From Fibrobacter sp. (lineage in GTDB: Bacteria; Fibrobacterota; Fibrobacteria; Fibrobacterales; Fibrobacteraceae), in the NCBI GenBank assembly GCA_024399065.1, contig JAKSIB010000004.1, positions 1 through 64,000 of the forward strand: a stretch of 64,000 nucleotides of DNA, given 5' to 3'. Below, piece after piece: positions 13,380 through 24,722 of the stretch; positions within the stretch are counted from its first letter, which is position 1; each line of letters begins with the position of its first letter. The position numbers and the translations under genes are program-made. A model generated the notes under the pieces. That model was given only the letters and a program-made list of their open reading frames with translations, ran no database searches and was not told where the DNA came from.

Positions 13380-13651
13380 TTTTTTGTCTTTCCTTTTTGA
13401 AAAAATGAACGTGCAGGGGCGGCGACCCCTGAAGAAAAAGTAAGTGGGGTAAAATATAGAAAGCGGGGGAGGAGTCTTTAGAAATGAGAGTAAAGATGAG
13501 GCAAAAAATGGGGTGTTTTGCAAGGTGAAAACAAATTATGTATATTTTGGATACCGCTCACCCTTGAGTGAAGTGCGTTGCCGGGTAACAGTCTGTTTAA
13601 TTGTAACCCCACAGTTTATTATATGAACATCCTGAAATAAGGAAATAAACT

Positions 13652-13969
13652 ATGGCGAATGCATTTTCCAGAGAGAATAGTGTGAGTTGTAGTAAGATGA
13701 TGTACCCTTTCTTGACACTAGACGATGACTCTGAAATCGTCCATTCCGAAATGCTAAAGGATGGTCGCGTCAAAGTGTACATTGAAAAGCCTGATGAGAA
13801 GGATTGCTTCCATCATGCAACTTGTTACCTGCCCCAATACACATGGGAAGATATATCCGGTTTTTCAGATAGCGAAATAGATCGATACAAAAAAGTCATC
13901 GAATCTACAGCTCATCTGATAATGGAATTTTCTCAAAAGGGCGGGTTTGACAATGCCAAAAATATTTAG
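13652..13969 (+). CDS. Small protein of unknown function upstream of DUF4160 remnant
   Basis: The 105-residue product has no signal or membrane segment and is acidic. I do not recognise the family. It overlaps the following DUF4160-type gene by 17 bases. DUF4160 genes are commonly paired with a small partner gene (often DUF2442), so this may be the partner of that module. A purine-rich AAATAAGGAAATAAACT precedes the ATG. It marks the left end of the accessory island. Confidence 0.55.
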   Translation: MANAFSRENSVSCSKMMYPFLTLDDDSEIVHSEMLKDGRVKVYIEKPDEKDCFHHATCYLPQYTWEDISGFSDSEIDRYKKVIESTAHLIMEFSQKGGFDNAKNI

Positions 13970-14090
13970 AATCGGCTCGTATTGGGTTTACTTTTGGTCT
14001 AACGAAAACTTGCCACTTGAACCAATACATGTCCATGTATCGGAAGGTGTTCCCGCTCCAAATGCGACTAAGGTTTGGATTAATATTTGA
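13953..14090 (+). CDS. DUF4160-family protein, truncated
   Basis: A 45-codon gene starts MPKIFRIGSYWVYFWSNEN and continues PLEPIHVHVSEG and PNATKVWIN before a TGA. This is the N-terminal half of a DUF4160 protein (usually about 80-90 residues, with the conserved PxHxHV motif present here). The C-terminal half is absent, and the bases after the stop do not restore it in another frame as far as I can see. DUF4160 proteins occur with small partners in putative toxin-antitoxin-like pairs. It is probably a decayed module. Confidence 0.6.
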   Translation: MPKIFRIGSYWVYFWSNENLPLEPIHVHVSEGVPAPNATKVWINI

Positions 14091-14163
14091 ACGAAATACG
14101 GAAAGTTTGAGAATTTTCCGTATTTTGTTGAAATCGTGAACTGAAAGAAGTTATATTTAAGGC

Positions 14164-14751
14164 ATGCCTAACAAGATGAATATATCCGATTTACAGCTAG
14201 TCTATTCAAGTGGTGAACTCCAAAAGCAAGGCCATTCATATTATCAGATAGTGAAAATGGTGGAGTGTGGGGCGCTCATGCGCCTCAGTAAATCGTATTA
14301 CGAAAACGCAAACTTTTCTGGTGACATGAATGACTTTTACTATGTCCGAGCCTATGCGACTCAGGGCGTGGTTTGCCTTATGAGTGCAGCCGTTTATTAC
14401 AATTTAACAACCTTCCGCCCCGATGCCATCGATGTTGCTATTCCGCCCAAGGCAAAACTTTCTACACAACCCGAAAACTTAAAGATCAACCTTCGTTACT
14501 TTTCTGGCGAACGTCATTCTCTTGGTGTCAAAACAATCCGCCAAAATAAAAACACCTTCAAAATTTACGATATCGAAAAAACTGTCGTTGACATTGTCTC
14601 GAACCGAAACAAAGTCGGAATCGAAGAAACCAAGGAAATCCTGGTCAATTACCTCGCAAGGCAAGAAAAAAATCTTAACAATCTCTATCGCTATGCCGAA
14701 AAACTTTCATGCCTGAAAATTCTGAAAACATATCTAGAGGTACTAGTGTGA
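14164..14751 (+). CDS. AbiEi-type antitoxin / transcriptional regulator (type IV TA)
   Basis: The 195 residues show the AbiEi layout: a short N-terminal winged-helix-like part (ISDLQLVYSSGELQKQGHS..IVKMVECGALMRLSKSYY), then the AbiEi C-terminal domain with a MSAAVYYNLTTFRP block, DVAIPP, and IYDIEKTVVDIVSNRNKVG. AbiEi represses the operon and counteracts the nucleotidyltransferase toxin AbiEii in phage abortive infection. The stop overlaps a GTG by 4 bases (GTGA), the usual arrangement with abiEii, but here only scraps of the toxin follow. Confidence 0.75.
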   Translation: MPNKMNISDLQLVYSSGELQKQGHSYYQIVKMVECGALMRLSKSYYENANFSGDMNDFYYVRAYATQGVVCLMSAAVYYNLTTFRPDAIDVAIPPKAKLSTQPENLKINLRYFSGERHSLGVKTIRQNKNTFKIYDIEKTVVDIVSNRNKVGIEETKEILVNYLARQEKNLNNLYRYAEKLSCLKILKTYLEVLV

Positions 14752-14902
14752 ATGTACAGACTCGTTTGCAACAGATGCGGAACGCGTAAAAAGATGGAAT
14801 GCGTTTGTGAAAAAGAAAAACGCTTTGATGCAGGTGACTTTTGACAAGGTTGTTGCGCAAATTAAGGAGAATTTCAAACCTATTGTAGAAAGATTACGGT
14901 AA
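14748..14902 (+). pseudogene. AbiEii toxin remnant with internal deletion
   Basis: From GTG 14748 the frame gives VNVQTRLQQ and then stops. A shifted frame from 14774 gives DAERVKRWNAFVKKKNAL, then FDKVVAQIKENFKPIVERLR and a TAA at 14900. That second stretch matches the C-terminal helix region of AbiEii nucleotidyltransferases, where a Trp-Asn-Ala-Phe-(x)-Lys-Lys block is typical. The whole catalytic core (about 250 residues, with the GSxxR/K and DxD motifs) is missing. The antitoxin is therefore an orphan. Confidence 0.65.
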
Positions 14903-14923
14903 TTAGAATAAAATCGCTGAAAC

Positions 14924-14960
14924 ATCCCGAAGGTTCTGCGCGAATCTTCGGGGATTTTTT
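14924..14960. terminator. Terminator between AbiE remnant and restriction subunit gene
   Basis: CCCGAAG/CTTCGGGG stems enclose a 12-base loop and are followed by a T-run on the plus strand. It ends at the stop of the convergent res gene. Confidence 0.75.
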
Positions 14961-17641
14961 TACCATTCTTTTATCGTATCCAAGAATTCATCCTTAGTGT
15001 AGGCATGTTCTACACGGCGGTCCTTATACACGAGGCAGTAGCGGAAGTTGTTACCAGCTTTGCTTGCCCACAAGTTCCCGAGTTTGATTTTCTTTTCGGC
15101 ATCAAGATGGTCGCCCTTGGTTTCTAGCAAAATGACTTTGCCATTTTTTGTTTTGATGATGAAGTCTGGATAATGGTTGATGAAACCGTTGATGCAGAAA
15201 TCCTTCTTTTCGCGATTGCGAGTCCAGAATTCCACGTTTTCCATATTGGCGACGGCGTTAATAACCCCTTCTTCAAAGATGTTGACTTTTTCTTCTGCTT
15301 CGTGAAGTGTTTTTGGAAGTGACTTGCCAGCAGAAGAAAGTATCAACTTTTCTGAAATTTCGTAAGTTGGCTTCAATTCGATTTTGTCTTGATCTAAAGC
15401 TTTTTCAAATTCTCGTTCTATATACTTAGCTGAAAGTTCACTAATCTTTGATTTGATTTTTTCAGCATACAAAGCTTGAGAATTCAACATGTTGTTTAAA
15501 TCGGCTTCGGATAAATTTTGCAACACGCGATTGATGTATTCTATGATATCAGGGTCGGGAATGGGGTACATGTTTCCGATCCAACCGCGGAGACTTTGTG
15601 CACAAAGTTCTCGTTTCTTATCCAGATTCTTGACATTGGTTAACCACTGGATAATCTCGTTTTGTCGCTGCTTATCCACATTAAAAATGGTTGGCGTAAA
15701 ATCTTTCTGGGTTTCATCCAAGTCAACGCGGCGGATATCCGATTCTACGCTTTGAAAATCTATGTTGGTGTCCTCATTTTTAAGAGGAAACTTTTTCAGA
15801 AGCATGTCTTTTTCGAAAGGCTCTGAGTTCAGATTGAACAAGTCGTTTTGCAGGGCGTGCTTGTAATAGAACTGCGGCAGTTTTAGCGAGGCCACTGTTT
15901 CCTTAAAGATTTCCTTGACATCGTATGTTTTCACTTGCTTACTGACCTCACTAGGTGCGAGTGGCGATTTGGCATTTGCCTCAACCTGTTTTTCCAATTT
16001 CTGATTTTCGGCGATAGCTTGCTTTGCAATTTCTGCGATTACAGAGTTTTCTTCTGCGGATGCTGTTGGATTTGTTGAATCGACCTTAGAAACATCTACT
16101 TCTGTAGAACCTGGATTGTATATCGCTTTCGCGGAGTCTGACAAATGATCGGGAACTGGCTTCCAGAAAATTTTTGAAACATCAAAATCGTCAGGCTTAT
16201 TAACGTCGGCAAACAGCGGCGGTTCAGTCGCTCCAGTATTTTCCGCAGTAGCCTCACCTGCATTTCCAGAATTTTCCGGTTCCTCAATTTCAACTTGGCG
16301 ATAATCCTTGCTGCTAAATCCTGCACGGTTCAAGCCCTTCACGATGCTATCCAGAGTTTCGCTGAATTTTGCAGAGGCGGTAAACACATAGCTCATGTTA
16401 AGCATTGCATTTTCATTTTTGCAAACATTGGGCAGTCGCAAAACCCTGCCCAAAATCTGTTCCACGTCCACGCTGGAACTGCGATCCGCAAGACTTGCAA
16501 GAATATAAGCGAATGGACAGTCCCAGCCTTCTTTCAACGCATTTACCGTAATGATATAGCGTACAGGACAATCGGCGGACATCAGGTCCACATTCAGCAA
16601 TTCATTCTTGTCGGCAGTCTTTATCTTGATCTGTTCTTCTGGAATTTTCAATTCCAAAAGCATGGACTTTACTTTTTCAAAAGTGGCGTTGTCATTTTTC
16701 GTTTTAGGTTCCGCCTGAAAAAGTACGATGGGGCGGATGTAGGGCGCTCCATTTTTTCGAGCGGCTTCCGCAGACATTTCCAAGCGATAACGGAGTTCTA
16801 AAGCGGAACTTACCACATCCTCTTTTTTGCGATGATTGTAGACAATCACCGGCAACTTTACCATGTTCTCTTTCTTGAGTTCCAAAGCAGAAGTAAAACT
16901 GATGATGTTGCTGTTCTTGCGAGGTGTTGCAGTCAAATCCAGAATAAAACTGGGATTCAAATTTTTCAGCATTTCCACACTGAGTTCGCTTTCTGCATTG
17001 TGGCTTTCGTCAACAATTACAACAGGATTTAGCGAACGCAGAACGGACATTACCGAGATTTCTTCTTCATCTACGCGGTTGGCAAATGACTGTAGATTGC
17101 CATTTTCTTCGTTGACTTTTCGATCTTCTGCTTTTCTTGCGCGGAGACTATCGAAACTTAGAATGCAAAGCGAAAGATTTTCATGAACGGAGGTGCAGTT
17201 GAATCCCGCGCCCTGCAATAACATTTTCTTGTCGAAGACTTCAACCCTATTCGCAAAATCTGTGTTCAGCTGTTCTCGGTATGAGTGCTTTGGATTGCCG
17301 AAATTGCGAAGGGTTTGTTCCAGAATCGAATTGGACGGTACAAGCCATACTACTATTTTGGGACGAGTGCTGTCGAAAGCCTTGAAAATAGTGTTTAGGG
17401 CATTGGCTGCGATAAAAGTTTTTCCTCCAGCGGTAGGAACCTTTATGCAGACATGAGGTACGCCAGGAACATTGTTCTTGTATGGTTCTACAGCTTCGCC
17501 AAGCATTGGCGTAATTGCTGTGCGAGGATGCGTCTGCCAAAATTCGTTGAACGCAACAGCCGTATTCCCTTTTTCTTTTAAAATTTCGAGATAGAATGCA
17601 AGGTCATCTATGATCTGTTTTTGATAGGGCTTTAAAAGCAT
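14960..17641 (-). CDS. res: Type III restriction enzyme, Res (helicase-nuclease) subunit
   Basis: The 893 residues match type III Res. The SF2 helicase part has Walker A PTAGGKT (69-75), Walker B DESH (211-214), motif III LTATP (about 237) and motif VI-like QILGRVLRLP. The C-terminal nuclease has PDFIIKTKNGKVILLETKG near residue 850, which is the PD-(x)n-ExK catalytic motif. It translocates and cleaves DNA bearing two unmodified head-to-head sites, together with Mod. Its ATG shares one base with the mod stop codon (TAATG), so the pair is translationally coupled. A serine/alanine/glutamate-rich insertion lies around residues 450-560. Confidence 0.93.
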   Translation of the reverse strand: MLLKPYQKQIIDDLAFYLEILKEKGNTAVAFNEFWQTHPRTAITPMLGEAVEPYKNNVPGVPHVCIKVPTAGGKTFIAANALNTIFKAFDSTRPKIVVWLVPSNSILEQTLRNFGNPKHSYREQLNTDFANRVEVFDKKMLLQGAGFNCTSVHENLSLCILSFDSLRARKAEDRKVNEENGNLQSFANRVDEEEISVMSVLRSLNPVVIVDESHNAESELSVEMLKNLNPSFILDLTATPRKNSNIISFTSALELKKENMVKLPVIVYNHRKKEDVVSSALELRYRLEMSAEAARKNGAPYIRPIVLFQAEPKTKNDNATFEKVKSMLLELKIPEEQIKIKTADKNELLNVDLMSADCPVRYIITVNALKEGWDCPFAYILASLADRSSSVDVEQILGRVLRLPNVCKNENAMLNMSYVFTASAKFSETLDSIVKGLNRAGFSSKDYRQVEIEEPENSGNAGEATAENTGATEPPLFADVNKPDDFDVSKIFWKPVPDHLSDSAKAIYNPGSTEVDVSKVDSTNPTASAEENSVIAEIAKQAIAENQKLEKQVEANAKSPLAPSEVSKQVKTYDVKEIFKETVASLKLPQFYYKHALQNDLFNLNSEPFEKDMLLKKFPLKNEDTNIDFQSVESDIRRVDLDETQKDFTPTIFNVDKQRQNEIIQWLTNVKNLDKKRELCAQSLRGWIGNMYPIPDPDIIEYINRVLQNLSEADLNNMLNSQALYAEKIKSKISELSAKYIEREFEKALDQDKIELKPTYEISEKLILSSAGKSLPKTLHEAEEKVNIFEEGVINAVANMENVEFWTRNREKKDFCINGFINHYPDFIIKTKNGKVILLETKGDHLDAEKKIKLGNLWASKAGNNFRYCLVYKDRRVEHAYTKDEFLDTIKEW

Positions 17642-19266
17642 TAGAATCTCCTTACATCACGGGGAATCTTTTTAAATACAATGTTGTTCTTGAAAAGAAA
17701 ATCTTTGGGCAATACGCAGTTGTCTGCGTAAATGACATAGCGTTCTGCCTTTTGGCTGATGGTTCCAAGGAATTCGAAATCAAGAGTTGTAATTTCTGAC
17801 TTTTTGTAGAAAAGGTAGTAGGCGGCGTTGTCGTGATTGCCCAAGAAGAATTCGTTTCTGTTCTTTGAAACTTCAGAGGAATCGATGACGGAATTGGTTT
17901 CTGTATAGTAGATGTAATTGCGAATGTTTTCTAAAGGCTGTTCTTCGTTTAGTGAACCGTCCAGCAACATTTCGGGACCGAGCTCGTAATAGTTGAAATC
18001 ACCTCCGGTTCCCTCCACAGCGTTCTTGCCTTCACCATAACCGTTGATGACGCGACGGACTCTTTCTGCAGTGATGTTGTTCGCATAGTCTTCCATTTCT
18101 ACAAGGATGAACTTGCGGTTTCCGCCATCCTGCTTGTTGAGGTTGAGGACTGCGTGGGCAGTGGTGCCGGAACCTGCGAAAGAGTCAAGGATGATGGAGT
18201 TGGGGCCGGAAATTATTTTCAATAAATATTCAATTAAATTCAATGGTTTTGGATAATCAAATTTTTTTGCAGAAAAAACACTCATTAAATCCGCTGTTCC
18301 TCTCGCAGAACTAGCTCCGTCAATATCTAGAAGTAAATTTTGATATGGTAGTGTTCTCTGGATTGGACTATCGTTATTATCTACGCTTTGATATTGCTTG
18401 AAATAAACAGACCATTGCGAACCATTTTGCTTAAATACGATAAAATCGTTTTTTACGCCCCACTCGAATTTTGCTTTTGACCATCTCCAATTCCAATGTT
18501 CTTGTTTTTCACTTGAGTTTCCTGGATATAACGAATTTCCATCTGGAGTTCCTATAGAATAGTTTAGAGCATCAGAATAATGAGACCCCGTCATTCTTCT
18601 GTCAAGTTTATTTAATGTATAACGGCCTCGCCTTTCTACATAATTGTCTTCCAAATTGTATTTAGTGTCGTCGCATGTGTTTCTTGTGTTAGCAACAAAA
18701 AATCTACGGTCTTTGGAGTATAGAAGAATGTATTCAGAAACTGTTTTTATATCTTTTCCTGTGTTTGAACCAGGCGTAGATTGCCAAATAAAATTTGCAA
18801 CAAAATTCCCTGCCCCGAAAATTTCATCGCATATTAGTTTCAAGTTCGCCTGTTCGTTATCGTCGATACTGATAAAAATTGCGCCATCTTCCCGAAGTAG
18901 TTTATGCAACAACTTTAAACGCGGGTACATCATGCAGAGCCACTTGTCGTGTCGGGTTAAATCCTCGGCCTCTTTCCCTACAACCTGACCCAGCCACTTG
19001 CGAATTTTGGGACTGTTTACATTGTCGTTATATACCCAGTTCTCGTTGCCCGTGTTGTAGGGCGGATCGATATAGATGCATTTCACCTTGCCTTCGTATT
19101 CCGGCATCAAGGCTTTGAGGGCCTCAAGGTTGTCGCCATGAATGATCTTGTTTTCAGAAGCGCCTTTTTCGCAGTTGAAGGAATCCTTCAGTTCCAGGGT
19201 CTTGTATGGAACATCCAGGTGATGATTCAGAACAGCATCTTTTCCGAGCCAGTGTAAAGAGGGCAA
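17641..19266 (-). CDS. mod: Type III DNA methyltransferase, Mod subunit
   Basis: This is a beta-class N6-adenine methyltransferase with DPPYNTG (about residue 67) first and the SAM-binding DSFAGSGTTAHAV motif in the C-terminal third. A target-recognition region of low similarity lies between them. The frame is open to 19461, but the family N-terminus (PSLHWLGKDAVLNHH) begins at a TTG at 19266 preceded by GAGG, so I use that start; the upstream residues are not family-like. The specificity cannot be read from sequence. It is paired with res. Confidence 0.9.
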   Translation of the reverse strand: MPSLHWLGKDAVLNHHLDVPYKTLELKDSFNCEKGASENKIIHGDNLEALKALMPEYEGKVKCIYIDPPYNTGNENWVYNDNVNSPKIRKWLGQVVGKEAEDLTRHDKWLCMMYPRLKLLHKLLREDGAIFISIDDNEQANLKLICDEIFGAGNFVANFIWQSTPGSNTGKDIKTVSEYILLYSKDRRFFVANTRNTCDDTKYNLEDNYVERRGRYTLNKLDRRMTGSHYSDALNYSIGTPDGNSLYPGNSSEKQEHWNWRWSKAKFEWGVKNDFIVFKQNGSQWSVYFKQYQSVDNNDSPIQRTLPYQNLLLDIDGASSARGTADLMSVFSAKKFDYPKPLNLIEYLLKIISGPNSIILDSFAGSGTTAHAVLNLNKQDGGNRKFILVEMEDYANNITAERVRRVINGYGEGKNAVEGTGGDFNYYELGPEMLLDGSLNEEQPLENIRNYIYYTETNSVIDSSEVSKNRNEFFLGNHDNAAYYLFYKKSEITTLDFEFLGTISQKAERYVIYADNCVLPKDFLFKNNIVFKKIPRDVRRF

Positions 19267-19667
19267 GGGAACCTCGGGGCAAAAGTTAAACCTGGGCTTT
19301 GCTCCGAAACCGAAAGACTTTGAAACCGTTTTTCTGTTGATACAAAAAAGGTGTGGAATCGCAAGTCTTCCGTAATCAAGGTTCTGGTAAACCCGTGCGC
19401 GAAAAGACAAAACGACCCACACCCGATTGGGTGTGAGCGTCCGTCCATAATTCCCGCGCAATAAAAATTTACCAGATTTTGATTACGAGATTAAGGACAA
19501 ATACCCTAAAATCAAACGCCCGGCATTTCTGCCAAGCTATGTCAAGGAGAATATAAATAAAAACAAGAATACGCCCCAACCTTGCCGGTGGGATTGAACA
19601 GTATAATCGGGGGAATATTTCGTATTATGCCGGCAACAATTCGGTAAAAAGCGAAAGTTTCTTCGAT
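19267..19667. other. Intergenic region upstream of mod with possible gene scrap
   Basis: No complete gene is seen. On the plus strand, 19451-19597 is an open stretch without a start that reads LPDFDYEIKDKYPKIKRPAF and then SYVKENINKNKN. It has protein-like composition and might be the tail of a lost gene. The promoter of mod should lie in this region, but I cannot place it. Confidence 0.3.
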
Positions 19668-20042
19668 CTAATTGGAATTAATGCAAAAAATCTCAGGTTT
19701 CTTATCCGGAAGACGGTCTTGCACAAGTTTCAAACACTGAGAAACTCTTTTGGATAAAAAACGTCTTATTACGGGATTTTCACTTTTTAAATTGCAATCC
19801 AAAATAATTACAACCTTAGAACAAAAGCGAAGTCTTTCCAAGGTTGCAAAAACTTTGTTTCCATCATCTAATCGCAATAATTCAGAAATGCTTATAGAAC
19901 GAACGTATTCCTTGGTATCAAACAAGTCGTATCCTTTTTTATAATCACGAATTTGTTTTTCTCCAGAATACTCGGCAAGAGGCACTTCTAAATTTTCGCG
20001 ACCGTCCCAAAATGAGCCAAGAAGTTTATAGGTTGATTTCAC
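19668..20042 (-). CDS. Unknown protein, fourth gene of DUF4417 operon
   Basis: The 124 residues start at a GTG that overlaps the previous stop by 4 bases (GTGA). There is no signal or membrane segment. It has a hydrophobic strand RFCSKVVIILDCN in the middle and a Lys/Arg-rich C-terminal third (RRFLSKRVSQCLKLVQDRL). No family is recognised. As the last of four overlapping genes it is likely part of one functional unit, possibly an immunity-like or accessory protein. Confidence 0.6.
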   Translation of the reverse strand: MKSTYKLLGSFWDGRENLEVPLAEYSGEKQIRDYKKGYDLFDTKEYVRSISISELLRLDDGNKVFATLERLRFCSKVVIILDCNLKSENPVIRRFLSKRVSQCLKLVQDRLPDKKPEIFCINSN

Positions 20043-20386
20043 AGTTCGACTACAACTCCTGTGTTTAGCTCAATCGCTCTCGCTGCAAATTCCAAGAGTT
20101 TCCTGTACAAATTCACCAAGATGTCGCTTGAAATGTTCGGTAGTCGTTCTTCGAGCCAGGACTTTAATATAGTGCATTTAGCTTGATCAAAATAATCTAA
20201 ATCACCATCATCGAGTAGTGTTCCGCACGCTTGGTTGATGGGGGGAACAAAGTCCTCCAGAAGAAGATCGTTTTCTTCATCTTCAAAATAGAATACTTCT
20301 ACTCGAGAATCCGGTGGATAGGGAACTACAGGAATATGACCGTAGTACTCCAATCCCGCATAATCAAGAATCAAGGCAAATTTCAT
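20039..20386 (-). CDS. Unknown acidic protein, third gene of DUF4417 operon
   Basis: The 115 residues are markedly acidic (FYFEDEENDLLLEDF). The N-terminal strand MKFALILDYAGLEYYGHIP is followed by helices. There is no signal peptide. The ATG shares a base with the upstream stop (TAATG). Small acidic proteins encoded next to toxin-like proteins are often immunity proteins; this is context-based inference only. Confidence 0.6.
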   Translation of the reverse strand: MKFALILDYAGLEYYGHIPVVPYPPDSRVEVFYFEDEENDLLLEDFVPPINQACGTLLDDGDLDYFDQAKCTILKSWLEERLPNISSDILVNLYRKLLEFAARAIELNTGVVVEL

Positions 20387-20757
20387 TACATTTCCTCCTT
20401 TCTTAAAATTTTCATGTGAGAATCAGGTCCATCCGGCACGAGATCCCCGTATTTATCCAAGAAGGTTTTGAGATTACGGTCATATACCTTCAAATACCCA
20501 GAAGCCATATCCGCTTTTATAATATAATCTTTGTTTTTCCAGACGGATTTGACTCCATGAACCTTTGGCGTGACATCAGGAGTATACTTGTCAATAATCT
20601 CATTGATGTTGACTTTGTTCTTTTTCCAGTTCTCGTTAAACAAAGCCTCTCTCTTTTTACTCGCTATGTAGCCGCTTTGCAAATCAGGAGTCGAAGGAAC
20701 TGCGTACTCGACATAATACTGAGACAGTTTTGAATACACTTCTTTCGCGTTAGACAT
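20386..20757 (-). CDS. Small protein with toxin-like C-terminal module, second gene of DUF4417 operon
   Basis: The 123 residues have a helical N-terminal half (YSKLSQYYVEYAVPSTPDLQ) and a beta-rich C-terminal half (KDYIIKADMASGYLKVYDRN, then DSHMKILRKEEM). From memory, that second half resembles small domains found at the C-termini of phage MuF and polymorphic-toxin proteins. I could not check this. The start is coupled to the previous gene by a TAATG overlap. A Leu/Ser/Tyr-rich N-terminus without a signal argues for a cytoplasmic role. Confidence 0.55.
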   Translation of the reverse strand: MSNAKEVYSKLSQYYVEYAVPSTPDLQSGYIASKKREALFNENWKKNKVNINEIIDKYTPDVTPKVHGVKSVWKNKDYIIKADMASGYLKVYDRNLKTFLDKYGDLVPDGPDSHMKILRKEEM

Positions 20758-21419
20758 TATGCCACCTCCTTACGAGCCTTGTGGTAATCGGGGTACACAA
20801 GGTACTTGACGCCCATTGTGGAGAGTTTCTCCATTGCATTCGAATCCTCCTTGCCATAAATAAGCAATGTGGACGGCCTACCTAGCATCACAGTCGAAAT
20901 AAAGCGCATGTCATATAGTTCATCTTTAGGACAACCCAGAAATCCTGCGGCCCACAAAACGTTCTTTGGTACTCCGCTGATATTTTTATGAGTCAACCAG
21001 TTCCCCGTCCGGAGGTTCGCAACAATCTTTATTCCATTCACGGCGAGTACTGCCATAAACAGCTGATTCAGTAGCATTATGAAATCTTGCCACTCCTGAT
21101 CCATATCACTTGTAACCGTAACGTCTGTCGCCGCAGCGCCCGTATACTTGCGATACTCTGAAATTTCATCCAGAACATTTTCAAGCCTTGGATAAATCCT
21201 TGCGTCTGGGCAATAAAAGACTAACAGCGTCTTTTTCGGATTCCTTACGATTCTGTTTTTTCTGAAATCATAGGGAACCATCTGTTCCGGAATTTCTTCA
21301 AGAAACATTTCCCTTTCGAAGATGGGGAAGCCCATTTCATCGAATTTTATACCTTTACCTTGCAAATATTGCACAAAATCGTCTGCAATACGGCAAAGGT
21401 CCATCATGTTTTTTACCAT
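20757..21419 (-). CDS. DUF4417-like protein, first gene of a four-gene operon
   Basis: The C-terminal two thirds fit the DUF4417 pattern: LLVFYCPDARIYPRLENVL, then TVTSDMDQEWQDFIMLLNQL, NGIKIVANLRTGNWLT and PSTLLIYGK. In known members, strands ending in DM, xWG/W and YG recur in this order. DUF4417 proteins are found mainly in phages and mobile elements; their function is unknown. The frame is open to an ATG at 21443, but ATG 21419 has GAGG six bases upstream, so I use it. The promoter must lie in the structured region 21444-21731. Confidence 0.6.
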   Translation of the reverse strand: MVKNMMDLCRIADDFVQYLQGKGIKFDEMGFPIFEREMFLEEIPEQMVPYDFRKNRIVRNPKKTLLVFYCPDARIYPRLENVLDEISEYRKYTGAAATDVTVTSDMDQEWQDFIMLLNQLFMAVLAVNGIKIVANLRTGNWLTHKNISGVPKNVLWAAGFLGCPKDELYDMRFISTVMLGRPSTLLIYGKEDSNAMEKLSTMGVKYLVYPDYHKARKEVA

Positions 21420-21478
21420 GATTGCCTCTATGGCGTAAGCCATTTGTTACGAATCCAAATTTTATTTTGGACTCAGGT

Positions 21479-21600
21479 TTGACGAATGCTCACGGATTTT
21501 GCTACTTTAGAGGTTCCTACGCCTTACTAAGTAGCGATACCTGGTGAGCATTGTGCCGGAAGGCTGCATATGCGGTTTTCCGGCATTTTCTTTAATATAA
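21479..21600 (+). ncRNA. Structured RNA candidate with promoter and terminator
   Basis: The gap between the DUF4417 operon and the divergent regulator holds nested inverted repeats. These are TGCTCAC (21487)/GTGAGCA (21544), GCTACTT (21501)/AAGTAGC (21529), AGGT (21511)/ACCT (21539) and CTAC (21517)/GTAG (21531). A GC-rich hairpin follows (TGCCGGAA 21554/TTCCGGCA 21578) with a T-rich tail, typical of a rho-independent terminator on the plus strand. TTGACG (21479) and TACTTT (21502), 17-18 bases apart, resemble a sigma-70 promoter that would start transcription near 21514 and give a short RNA of about 80 bases. Known family: none recognised. Confidence 0.5.
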
Positions 21601-21731
21601 TCAAAATTATTTGATTTGTCAAATTAAATTAAATCAAATAATTTAGTCTTTGAATGTAATTTTTATTGAAAATCAACAAAAAACATAGTATATTTGGCAT
21701 GGATAATCATCTTTCGTCAAAAGGAGTCGCT

Positions 21732-22856
21732 ATGTCTTTGGAAAATTTAAGTGCCAATCTTCGACGTTTGATGAAAAAGAACGGGTTTTCCATCCCTAAA
21801 TTGGGAGAAGTCTCTGGGGTTAGCGTAGCGACCATCTCAAACATCCTTAATGAAAAAGGCGATCCGTCCCATTCAATCGTTGACAAGCTTTCGCGTGCTC
21901 TTGATGTTACTATTGGTGATCTGTACGCTCAGAAGCCCGTCTTAAAATCACTGCGATATAGGACAAATAAAGATCAGACTGCTAGAGAGAAGTCAGCAAA
22001 AGAAACTTTGCCTTATACCATTTATGAAAAACTGAAGACCTATAAGGAAGTTGAAAAGTACTTACCTAAACGCACGCCAATAGACTTTTCAAAGTTTCCG
22101 AAAGATCCTGTGGAGGCTGCCCGTAAACTGAGGATGGTTCTTTCTCTACGTTCTGACGCCCCTGTAACGAATTTTTTCGGAAATTTATCAGAACTTGGAG
22201 TAAAACAATTTTATTTCAACTTTGGATTGAGCAAAACATTTGGTGTTTCTGTTAATAAGGATGATGGAGGCCCTGCTATTTTTGTGAACATTGGAACAGC
22301 CAATGTAGAACGTTGGGTGTTCACCATTTTCCACGAACTCGGACACATCATTCTTCATCCGGAGTCCTATGACGGAGAAGTAAAAGCCGAAGAATCCGAT
22401 TCGAAAGAAGAACGGGATGCAGATTGCTTTGCCGCAGAATTTTTATTTCCTGTAGATGTGGTTCGAGAACGCGTCAAAGGAACTAAGAATTATTCTTTTA
22501 TTGATAAGATTCTTGAATTGAAACAGGAGTTTTCTGTTAGTTATTGGGTTGCGCTAAGCCAGTACTGCATTGCATATTCAAGAGATCGAAGCGAAGTTAT
22601 AAAGAAATTTCAAAGAATGTACAAGAACCGCACCAACCATGATTTCAAGGACCATTATGAGCCAAATTCTTTACCCAAGGAACGGTTCATTTTTGAAGAT
22701 CCGGATTTCAGAACCTGCATTTTTGAAGCGTTGAAAAACGACGATATGGAAGTTGAGCTTGCTGCGGAATTGTTGGGAACGGATGTCGATTTGATAAAGG
22801 AAGAATTGAAATGCGTGATTGAGGATGGGACTCTGGTCGAATCACGTCCATTTTGA
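21732..22856 (+). CDS. XRE transcriptional regulator with ImmA/IrrE metallopeptidase domain
   Basis: An N-terminal helix-turn-helix of the XRE/Cro type (NLRRLMKKNGFSIPKLGEVS, then GVSVATISNILN) is followed by a linker. A COG2856 ImmA/IrrE zinc peptidase domain comes next, with HELGH at about residues 201-205 and a downstream RDADCFAAEFLFP Glu-containing helix. Such fused regulators hold mobile-element or TA operons silent and are inactivated by self- or partner cleavage. The frame begins upstream, but AAGGAG precedes ATG 21732 by 5 bases. It is divergent from the DUF4417 operon and is probably its regulator. Confidence 0.88.
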   Translation: MSLENLSANLRRLMKKNGFSIPKLGEVSGVSVATISNILNEKGDPSHSIVDKLSRALDVTIGDLYAQKPVLKSLRYRTNKDQTAREKSAKETLPYTIYEKLKTYKEVEKYLPKRTPIDFSKFPKDPVEAARKLRMVLSLRSDAPVTNFFGNLSELGVKQFYFNFGLSKTFGVSVNKDDGGPAIFVNIGTANVERWVFTIFHELGHIILHPESYDGEVKAEESDSKEERDADCFAAEFLFPVDVVRERVKGTKNYSFIDKILELKQEFSVSYWVALSQYCIAYSRDRSEVIKKFQRMYKNRTNHDFKDHYEPNSLPKERFIFEDPDFRTCIFEALKNDDMEVELAAELLGTDVDLIKEELKCVIEDGTLVESRPF

Positions 22857-22869
22857 TGTAGACAATTGT

Positions 22870-22920: not shown

Positions 22921-23229
22921 GGGGCTTTAGCTCAATCGGTTAGAGCGTCGGACTCATAATGATTGTGACTCCGTTCCGAAAGGTTCGGATGAAAACGGGA
23001 AGAATTCGGTGAAACCTAAAGGGCCCTGGCCCAAAGGCAACGCCGAGCCGAGCCGGAGGTACACTTCCGGAAGGTGTAGAGACTAGCGGAGCAGTTTAGT
23101 CTGCTTAATGACCGCACAAGTATCCCGCGCCTAAACCTGCAAAGGCATGGCGAAGACATAGTCCACGGAGGCGTGAAAACGTCACAAACGTAAACCCGTT
23201 GGTTCCGGGTTCAAGTCCCGGAGGCCCCA
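22921..23229 (+). tRNA. tRNA (anticodon CAU, Ile2 or Met) interrupted by a group I intron
   Basis: The 5' exon (22921-22957) gives acceptor GGGGCTT, D-arm GCTC/GAGC and an anticodon arm ending at CAT. The 3' exon (about 23193-23229) gives a T-arm CCGGG TTCAAGT CCCGG and acceptor AGGCCCC with discriminator A; CCA is not encoded. The 1-72 pair is G-C, so it is not initiator tRNA. It most resembles tRNA-Ile2 (CAU, needing lysidine) or elongator Met. Position 39 would be C opposite A31 and 27-43 is T-T, so the anticodon stem is weak after splicing. Confidence 0.85.
22958..23192 (+). ncRNA. Group I intron (Azoarcus tRNA-Ile-like, IC3)
   Basis: The 235-base insertion after the CAU anticodon contains core motifs very like the Azoarcus tRNA-Ile intron. 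These are ATTCGGTGAAACCTA (23003), GGCAACGCCGAGCC (23036), AAGGTGTAGAGACTAG (23071) and GGCATGGCGAAGACATAGTC (23144). P1 can form between TCAT of the 5' exon and GTGA at 22966, with the expected U-G wobble at the splice site. P9 can be GGCGT-GAAA-ACGTC near 23169. There is no internal ORF. The 3' end is uncertain because the last G is at 23190, not directly before the exon. Confidence 0.85.
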
Positions 23230-23232
23230 CTG

Positions 23233-23269
23233 AAAAATCCCGTGTTCTTTTTGAACGCGGGATTTTTTG
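23233..23269. terminator. Bidirectional terminator after tRNA and GT5 gene
   Basis: ATCCCGTGTTC/GAACGCGGGAT arms are flanked by an A-run and a T-run. It serves the tRNA on the plus strand and the GT5 gene on the minus strand. Confidence 0.85.
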
Positions 23270-23288: not shown

Positions 23289-24722
23289 CTACAGTCCCAG
23301 TTCGCCGAAGAGCAACAAGTACTTGGAAATGGTGCGGCACCATTCGTAATGGAATCCGCTGTAGGCGTTGACCACGCACTTGTCCCAGTCGGCCTGTTCG
23401 GTCTGGAAAACGTTCACTGCATCGCGGACGCAGTTGAGCATGAGGTGGGGTGCGTTGGCGTCTTCTACCAGGAAGGCGTTTGCTTCGCCTGCAGTTTCGA
23501 AACTGTAGCTCACCAGCATTGCGGCAACACCAACAGAACGTCCGGTCAGCGGGAGGGTGCCTGCTGCCATGGCCTTGAGGATAATGGAAGAGGACGGTTC
23601 GCGGAGACTTGCTGCAAAGAGGACGTCGGCGCCGGCGAGAGTTTCGCGGAGCTGTTCCGGACCCTTCTTTTCGCCTTCTTCGAGATCCTGCAAGCACATG
23701 ACGTCGGGATACTGCTGAGAGAAGTCGCGGTAGTAGCCCCATTCGTTGTTCTTGGAGGAGACGCCGACGATGATGTAGACGTCCAGGTGGGCAACGTCGG
23801 AAAGGACCGTGGCCAAGGTTTCGGAAGTGTTTCCGGATTCGGAATCCAGGTGAACGTAGAGGATCATCTTATCCTTGAAGTCCACGCCCAGCTTTTCCTG
23901 GAGGGCCTGACGGGCACGGCGCTTTGCTTCCTTGATGGGGAGCATGTCGTTTCCGTTGAAATCCCAGAACTGGTAGCTGACGCCGAACTGGATGCCGATT
24001 AATTTGTCTGCATTACGATTCAGGAAGCCGCTAAGACCACCGGGGAGGTTTGTGTTCAACATGGCGTCGCGGTAGCCCGGAGACGGGAACAGAACCTTGG
24101 TGGCGTAGAGGATGCCTGCCTTGAGAAGGCTGACCTTGCCCCAGAACTCGTAGCCGTCCATATTGTAGTTTTCACGGGGAAGACCGATCTTTTCGATTTC
24201 GCTGCTTGCAACATGGAAATCGTAAGTGATGTTATGGACGTTAAAGAAGAAGGGAATGTCCTTGGCGTAGTCGGCATAGACTGTCTTGGAAAGAGCGCCT
24301 ACGAGAGCGCCGCCCCATTCGTGGCCCAGGATGGCCTGACAGGAATAGCCGGTCGCCTCGGCGTAGGCCAAGGCTGCGGAGGACAAAAATGCGAAGCGGA
24401 GGTGGTTGTCGGTGTAGGGGACTTCGTCAGGAGGTCCGTACACTTCGGGTCGACCAAAATATTCTTCGTTGTAGATGTAGGTATGGAGGGGATCCTTGTC
24501 CGAAACCATGATTTCGAAGGTCTTGCCCTGGAGCTTTTCGGTTCCCTGGAACACAGAGCGGTAGTCGTCTGCGTTGACCATTTTTTCCTTGATGAAGGGG
24601 GAGCAAGTCAATACCTTGGCGCCAGCGCATGCAAATGCGTCGGTCATACGGTTCACCGCTGTGGCTAGTGGGCTGGTATGAGACCAATTTCCCGCTTCAG
24701 GGCTCACGACAAGGATATTCAT
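23289..24722 (-). CDS. GT5-type glycogen/starch synthase homologue, divergent
   Basis: The length of 477 and fold markers fit the GlgA family. The N-terminal GT-B domain has VVSPEAGNWSHTSPLATAV, AILGHEWGGALVGAL and FFFNVHNITYDFHV. The acceptor and nucleotide-sugar domain has ILYVHLDSESGN, ADVLFAASLREPSSSIILKA and GTLPLTGRSVG. The hallmark KxGGL loop near residue 15, which binds ADP-glucose in GlgA, is absent (NWSHTSPL stands there). The gene may act on another donor or be non-catalytic. Fibrobacter stores glycogen, so a role there is plausible but unproven. Confidence 0.75.
   Translation of the reverse strand: MNILVVSPEAGNWSHTSPLATAVNRMTDAFACAGAKVLTCSPFIKEKMVNADDYRSVFQGTEKLQGKTFEIMVSDKDPLHTYIYNEEYFGRPEVYGPPDEVPYTDNHLRFAFLSSAALAYAEATGYSCQAILGHEWGGALVGALSKTVYADYAKDIPFFFNVHNITYDFHVASSEIEKIGLPRENYNMDGYEFWGKVSLLKAGILYATKVLFPSPGYRDAMLNTNLPGGLSGFLNRNADKLIGIQFGVSYQFWDFNGNDMLPIKEAKRRARQALQEKLGVDFKDKMILYVHLDSESGNTSETLATVLSDVAHLDVYIIVGVSSKNNEWGYYRDFSQQYPDVMCLQDLEEGEKKGPEQLRETLAGADVLFAASLREPSSSIILKAMAAGTLPLTGRSVGVAAMLVSYSFETAGEANAFLVEDANAPHLMLNCVRDAVNVFQTEQADWDKCVVNAYSGFHYEWCRTISKYLLLFGELGL

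Follow-up and report, generated by a model that had tools for sequence, protein, structure and literature searches.

The window analysed here, a 64,000-nucleotide stretch of a Fibrobacter sp. genome (G000), carries an interrupted tRNA gene facing a glgA-like gene on the opposite strand. The features of the locus are as follows:

22921–22957, + strand: 5′ exon of the tRNA gene, most likely tRNA-Ile2(CAU), ending at the anticodon CAU and identical or almost identical to the 5′ part of the intronless genes of sister species
22958–23192, + strand: IC3-like group I intron of 235 nt with A as its last base, supported by an RF00028 match (28.7 bits), core covariation and homologues in another 16 Fibrobacter genomes
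23193–23229, + strand: 3′ exon of the tRNA gene, in agreement with the intronless genes from base 23193 on
23231–23269, + strand: hairpin 3′ of the tRNA resembling an intrinsic terminator (consensus scan)
23289–24722, − strand: glgA-like starch/glycogen synthase gene (PF08323, 1.5e-36), a landmark of the ancestral tRNA-Ile2 site

The initial annotation had placed a tRNA(CAU) gene at 22921–23229 with a 235-base insertion directly after the anticodon; the interval of 309 bases proved exact, and the borders of the insert were confirmed. The insert had also been described as free of ORFs, in agreement with our scan for ORFs of at least 90 aa, which found none inside it. ARAGORN folded the joined exons (22921–22957 and 23193–23229) into a standard cloverleaf with a CAU anticodon, while the unspliced gene was called as a tRNA neither by ARAGORN nor by the Rfam tRNA model at its cut-off. 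A sigma-70 promoter upstream of the gene was unsupported in a consensus scan.

The window genome has two other CAU tRNAs, one initiator-like (L073) and one elongator-Met-like (L051). Since both are of the Met type, TilS is present (173.7 bits) and no intronless tRNA-Ile2 was found in this genome, the interrupted gene is most likely tRNA-Ile2, present as the sole copy in the assembly, an assignment by elimination that also draws on its likeness to betaproteobacterial tRNA-Ile genes. Its product would decode AUA after lysidine modification, and intron removal would be required for this tRNA. An intronless tRNA-Ile2 was likewise not found in G093, G092, G089 and G099; among these five intron-only genomes, G000, G093 and G099 are 99% complete and the two others 82–84%.

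Class and fold of the intron

RF00028 matched positions 22945–23185 with 28.7 bits (E = 1.7e-5 for the region and 3.5e-5 for the whole genome), the single such match in the genome. A covariance scan had been proposed as a check on the intron, with a sub-threshold score as its refutation. The score does fall short of the curated cut-off of 50 bits, but this cut-off fails to separate members from non-members here: the comparison tRNA introns of Gulbenkiania, Azonexus, Verrucomicrobia and Elusimicrobia scored 45.5, 40.1, 38.7 and 56 bits, respectively. Because comparable tRNA introns also lie below 50 bits, the low score is no evidence against group I identity, and we dropped it as a refutation in view of the 38.7–45.5 bits of the betaproteobacterial and Verrucomicrobiota introns. 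An RF00028 scan across the phylum with stricter filters missed the window intron itself.

Our alignment covered 16 introns of CAU tRNAs, taken from Fibrobacter, Verrucomicrobiota, Elusimicrobiota and betaproteobacteria. Pairing was nearly complete in helices P3, P4, P6, P7, P8, P9 and P9.0, and double changes were numerous in P3, P9 and P9.0; paired cells amounted to 50/50 in P3 and 79/80 in P9, the latter with 40 double changes. Pairing in P2, P5 and P8a was less regular between rows, where alignment error is possible. The elements of the fold that matter here, all on the + strand, are:

22965–22968: internal guide sequence GUGA, which pairs with exon UCAU at 22954–22957 (P1)
23081–23085 with 23159–23163: P7, which holds the guanosine-binding G:C pair; 80/80 cells paired, G:C in every row
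23086–23115: extra 30-nt stem between P7 and P3, P7.1-like, common to the Verrucomicrobiota and Elusimicrobiota introns and absent in the betaproteobacterial ones
23166–23167 with 23189–23190: P9.0; 32/32 cells paired, with 12 double changes

The U-G wobble at the splice site, earlier considered possible, is present in P1 (U22957 with G22965). The GTG of the guide is invariant in all 16 aligned introns, exon CTCAT is conserved, and U22963–U22964 can pair with the AA of exon 2 (P10). Helices that pair and covary across the alignment substantiate the conserved group I core motifs claimed initially, and the Azoarcus-like class holds as well, in the form of an IC3-like intron at the betaproteobacterial tRNA-Ile intron position. 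Alignment and fold thus support the identification of the insert as an IC3-like group I intron that interrupts a CAU tRNA gene. Our literature search, of incomplete coverage, found no earlier report of such an intron in Fibrobacterota.

The Azoarcus-type IC3 introns of betaproteobacterial tRNA-Ile(CAU) share with the Fibrobacter introns the host tRNA, the site after CAU, the P1 GUG guide, the core sequence, a length of ~200–240 nt and the lack of a long ORF. The Fibrobacter introns differ in ending in A instead of G, in their C-G/G-C P9.0 and in the extra P7–P3 stem. The CAU-tRNA introns L087, L088, L128 and L144, from Verrucomicrobiota and Elusimicrobiota, occupy the same site and have the extra stem, but end in G. 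These introns grouped with the Fibrobacter introns in a midpoint-rooted tree, into which five Polynucleobacter-type introns were entered minus a few 3′ bases, and the Fibrobacter introns formed one group (support 95/93). Another family of the phylum has a different group I intron (L288, G034:C142:18455-18984; RF00028 42.3 bits), which seems to contain coding sequence.

The terminal adenosine and the 3′ splice site

The last intron base is A in all 17 intron-bearing genomes of the genus, versus G in 24/24 relatives of other phyla. The 3′ ends of the latter read AACC-N-G|AA or a covarying version of it, and those of Fibrobacter AACG-T-A|AACCCG; both P9.0 pairs are kept in 16/16 rows as C-G, G-C or A-U. 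Intronless sister genes read CTCATAACCCG. The 5′ splice site is fixed by the intronless homologues and the conserved CTCAT, and the 3′ splice site is placed after A23192 because P9.0 covariation and the intronless genes fix the register; comparison thus shows the intron and both of its ends at the sequence level. In ARAGORN, a cut after A23192 yields a standard CAU tRNA, whereas cutting after the closest G leaves the anticodon loop mis-sized, that is, too large.

A terminal G has been described as universally conserved among group I introns (PMC8146996), which would favor a true 3′ splice site after the G of ACG (23190), leaving the intron its terminal G and the anticodon loop two extra bases. 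We consider this placement very unlikely: base 23190 pairs in P9.0 in 16/16 aligned rows, the resulting product is read as having a different anticodon, and the loop is shorter in the intronless sister genes.

With the site after A23192, the guanosine-binding G:C pair is unaltered despite the terminal A. For the intron of Tetrahymena, Been and Perrotta reportedly found in 1991 that exon ligation is blocked when the binding site is altered and returns once the terminal base is altered to match it, so a terminal A with an unaltered site is unexpected. The lack of a terminal G is nevertheless not disqualifying for a group I intron, since naturally spliced exceptions are known: hexacoral ND5-717 introns also have a terminal A and are correctly spliced in vivo (PMC6545197, PMC8146996). 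These are likened to the Fibrobacter introns by description, not by sequence, and differ in being giant, gene-carrying, mitochondrial and located in a protein gene.

The mismatch between a terminal A and an unchanged G:C pair might also mean that the gene is a pseudogene, in which the terminal A abolished the second splicing step and no tRNA is produced. This we find still less credible than a displaced splice site, as no other tRNA-Ile2 was found in the 99%-complete clade genomes G000, G093 and G099, TilS is present in G000, and the hexacoral precedent (PMC6545197) is spliced. From these comparisons, we infer that the intron tRNA is spliced in the cell, most likely in the two usual steps, with exogenous G attacking at the 5′ site and A then serving as the last intron base. 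A terminal A and an unaltered guanosine site combined in a compact ribozyme make the old rule on the second splicing step testable in a small RNA.

Prophages that split the host tRNA gene

Among the 80 Fibrobacter genomes sampled, 17, including the window genome, have the intron gene (81–100% identity), and other genomes of the genus have the uninterrupted gene. The 17 copies lie beside glgA (5), near an element end (8) or in islands (4). In 11 genomes of the genus (e.g., G069 and G098), an intact intronless tRNA-Ile2, the intron and the element ends were all not found, possibly owing to contig breaks or a diverged gene.

The attR end of the element was found in 16 genomes and attL in 17, all within Fibrobacter. 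In eight genomes, the intron tRNA lies inside the element, 2394–2396 bp from attR. Beyond attR follows the 3′ part of an intronless host tRNA-Ile2; the 5′ part of that gene, followed by ATCAACCCAGCCCCG, lies at the opposite end. Comparison shows the host gene split in 8/8 genomes with a readable element, and an intact intronless copy was not found in 7 of these 8; the exception, G077, has one, in a bin that is 8% contaminated. In the other eight attR genomes, the contig ends 9–291 bp from the element end, which cuts off the interior of the element.

G101 has the sole element read end to end, the others being recognised by their ends and the tRNA position. This element (~54 kb) encodes terminase, portal, Mu-F-like, sheath and baseplate proteins and RecT, with a tyrosine integrase beside attL; from its genes and att-like ends, it is an integrated prophage. 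Two IMG/VR contigs carry the intron tRNA beside G101-type head genes, with the Mu-F-like gene at full length. Phage and plasmid records gave no match, and no relatives of the element integrase were found in IMG/VR. The G101 prophage also contains genes like those of 7-deazaguanine synthesis, for GTP cyclohydrolase and a QueE-like protein (L236, 15556–17062). In G128 (L232 and L284), the same element is apparently integrated at a site other than a tRNA-Ile2 gene, and the tRNA-Ile2 of that genome is intact.

In our reading, the putative host site is GGTTAGAG-CnnCGGA-CTCATAACC, with near-inverted arms around a 7-base overlap. A possible attachment site of another element was seen at L216 (G134:C5:66740-66900), where the D-arm and anticodon arm of tRNA-Ile2 stand between GTGTGG and CTACAC, with no full tRNA.

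The integrase of the phage would recombine with the intronless tRNA-Ile2 between D-stem and anticodon, splitting the gene, and the phage would supply a complete, intron-bearing copy to replace the lost host function. Rescue of the split gene by the phage copy is the probable outcome, for which gene order gives good support. As a hypothesis, the intron, by interrupting the attachment region, would shield the phage copy from the phage's own integrase. It sits within the right arm of the inferred site and leaves the first bases of that arm intact, so complete shielding is uncertain.

Archaeal tRNA introns have been suggested to protect against further integration (Caldiarchaeum; the Randau and Söll hypothesis; PMC3293823). 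The Caldiarchaeum case is alike in its integrating element, its tRNA fragment and its intron at the attachment site (PMC3293823), and differs in that the archaeal introns are spliced by proteins and the tRNA is rebuilt, whereas in Fibrobacter the intron would be a group I ribozyme, the element a phage and the tRNA gene whole and separate. If rescue and shielding hold, a self-splicing intron gives a selective benefit to the element that carries it; a benefit of this kind has been suggested for tRNA introns of archaea, and we found no direct evidence for it in the accessible literature. What is new relative to the known kind is the terminal A and the location in prophages whose insertion splits this same gene of the host.

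Our main reading, to which we assign a probability of roughly 0.7 on sequence comparison, is that the intron gene is a spliced, sole tRNA-Ile2 of a family shared with gene-splitting, gene-replacing tailed prophages of the genus, and that the window copy is probably a remnant of such a phage. A bolder version, in which the phage destroys an essential tRNA gene and pays with an intron-shielded copy that the host may retain after phage decay, and in which the terminal A works as the first bacterial case found, falls somewhat short of an even chance.

The chief competitor, less probable though far from negligible, is an ordinary, vertically inherited intron in a chromosomal tRNA-Ile2 that a phage picked up by chance and in which it has no role. 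In its favor, the introns of the window clade are diverse and form their own clade; the phage copies mostly differ very little and seem to be of recent date, and the cargo next to the phage tRNA varies as at a gene pick-up site. Chance pick-up sits poorly with the fixed 2394–2396 bp distance in 8/8 readable lysogens, in which the host gene is always split, and with the finding that none of the lysogens examined has a complete intronless tRNA-Ile2 inside the phage.

Origin of the window copy and its neighborhood

In most intronless relatives, other genera of the family included, tRNA-Ile2 lies directly downstream of glgA on the same strand. In the window and four clade mates, the intron tRNA instead faces the glgA 3′ end from the opposite strand, with ~0.4 kb between them in G093. 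The phage tRNA of lysogen G101 has the same orientation to glgA as the window-clade copy, which would fit a phage-delivered gene left behind after phage loss; intronless genes convergent with glgA also occur (G072 and G081), and an older gene may instead simply have been inverted. The surroundings of the window copy showed no att scar or end and no G101-type phage gene, and the frequency of att ends in intron-only genomes (0/5) did not differ significantly from that in the others (18/75; p = 0.58). On this evidence, we put the odds of phage delivery at about even. The phage-borne and window-clade introns are sister groups in the tree, neither clearly nested in the other, so transfer between phage and host could have gone either way.

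Rescue is unneeded in four genomes (G060, G064, G104 and G105) that have an intact intronless gene alongside an intron copy away from an att site. A 6,962-bp piece is 99.96% identical between the G101 prophage and the islands of G104 and G064; it starts just before the intron tRNA and stops within the Mu-F-like gene, leaving this phage gene truncated in the islands. Just past the intron tRNA, L013, L019 and L023 carry as cargo an ORF starting MKIINIGILAHVDAGKTT, whose putative product resembles ribosomal-protection tetracycline resistance proteins. A homing endonuclease was considered as the mover in view of a short ORF, GIY-YIG-like in appearance, that comes immediately after the intron tRNA in L018 and L260, and was rejected; the ORF had no Pfam match. 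In the window, positions 13400–22860 form a variable stretch beside the intron tRNA that is partly common to G092 and G093. This stretch contains an AbiEi-like gene (14164–14751), a type III restriction-modification pair (14960–19461) and a gene for an HTH/ImmA-IrrE protein like RmrA (21666–22856).
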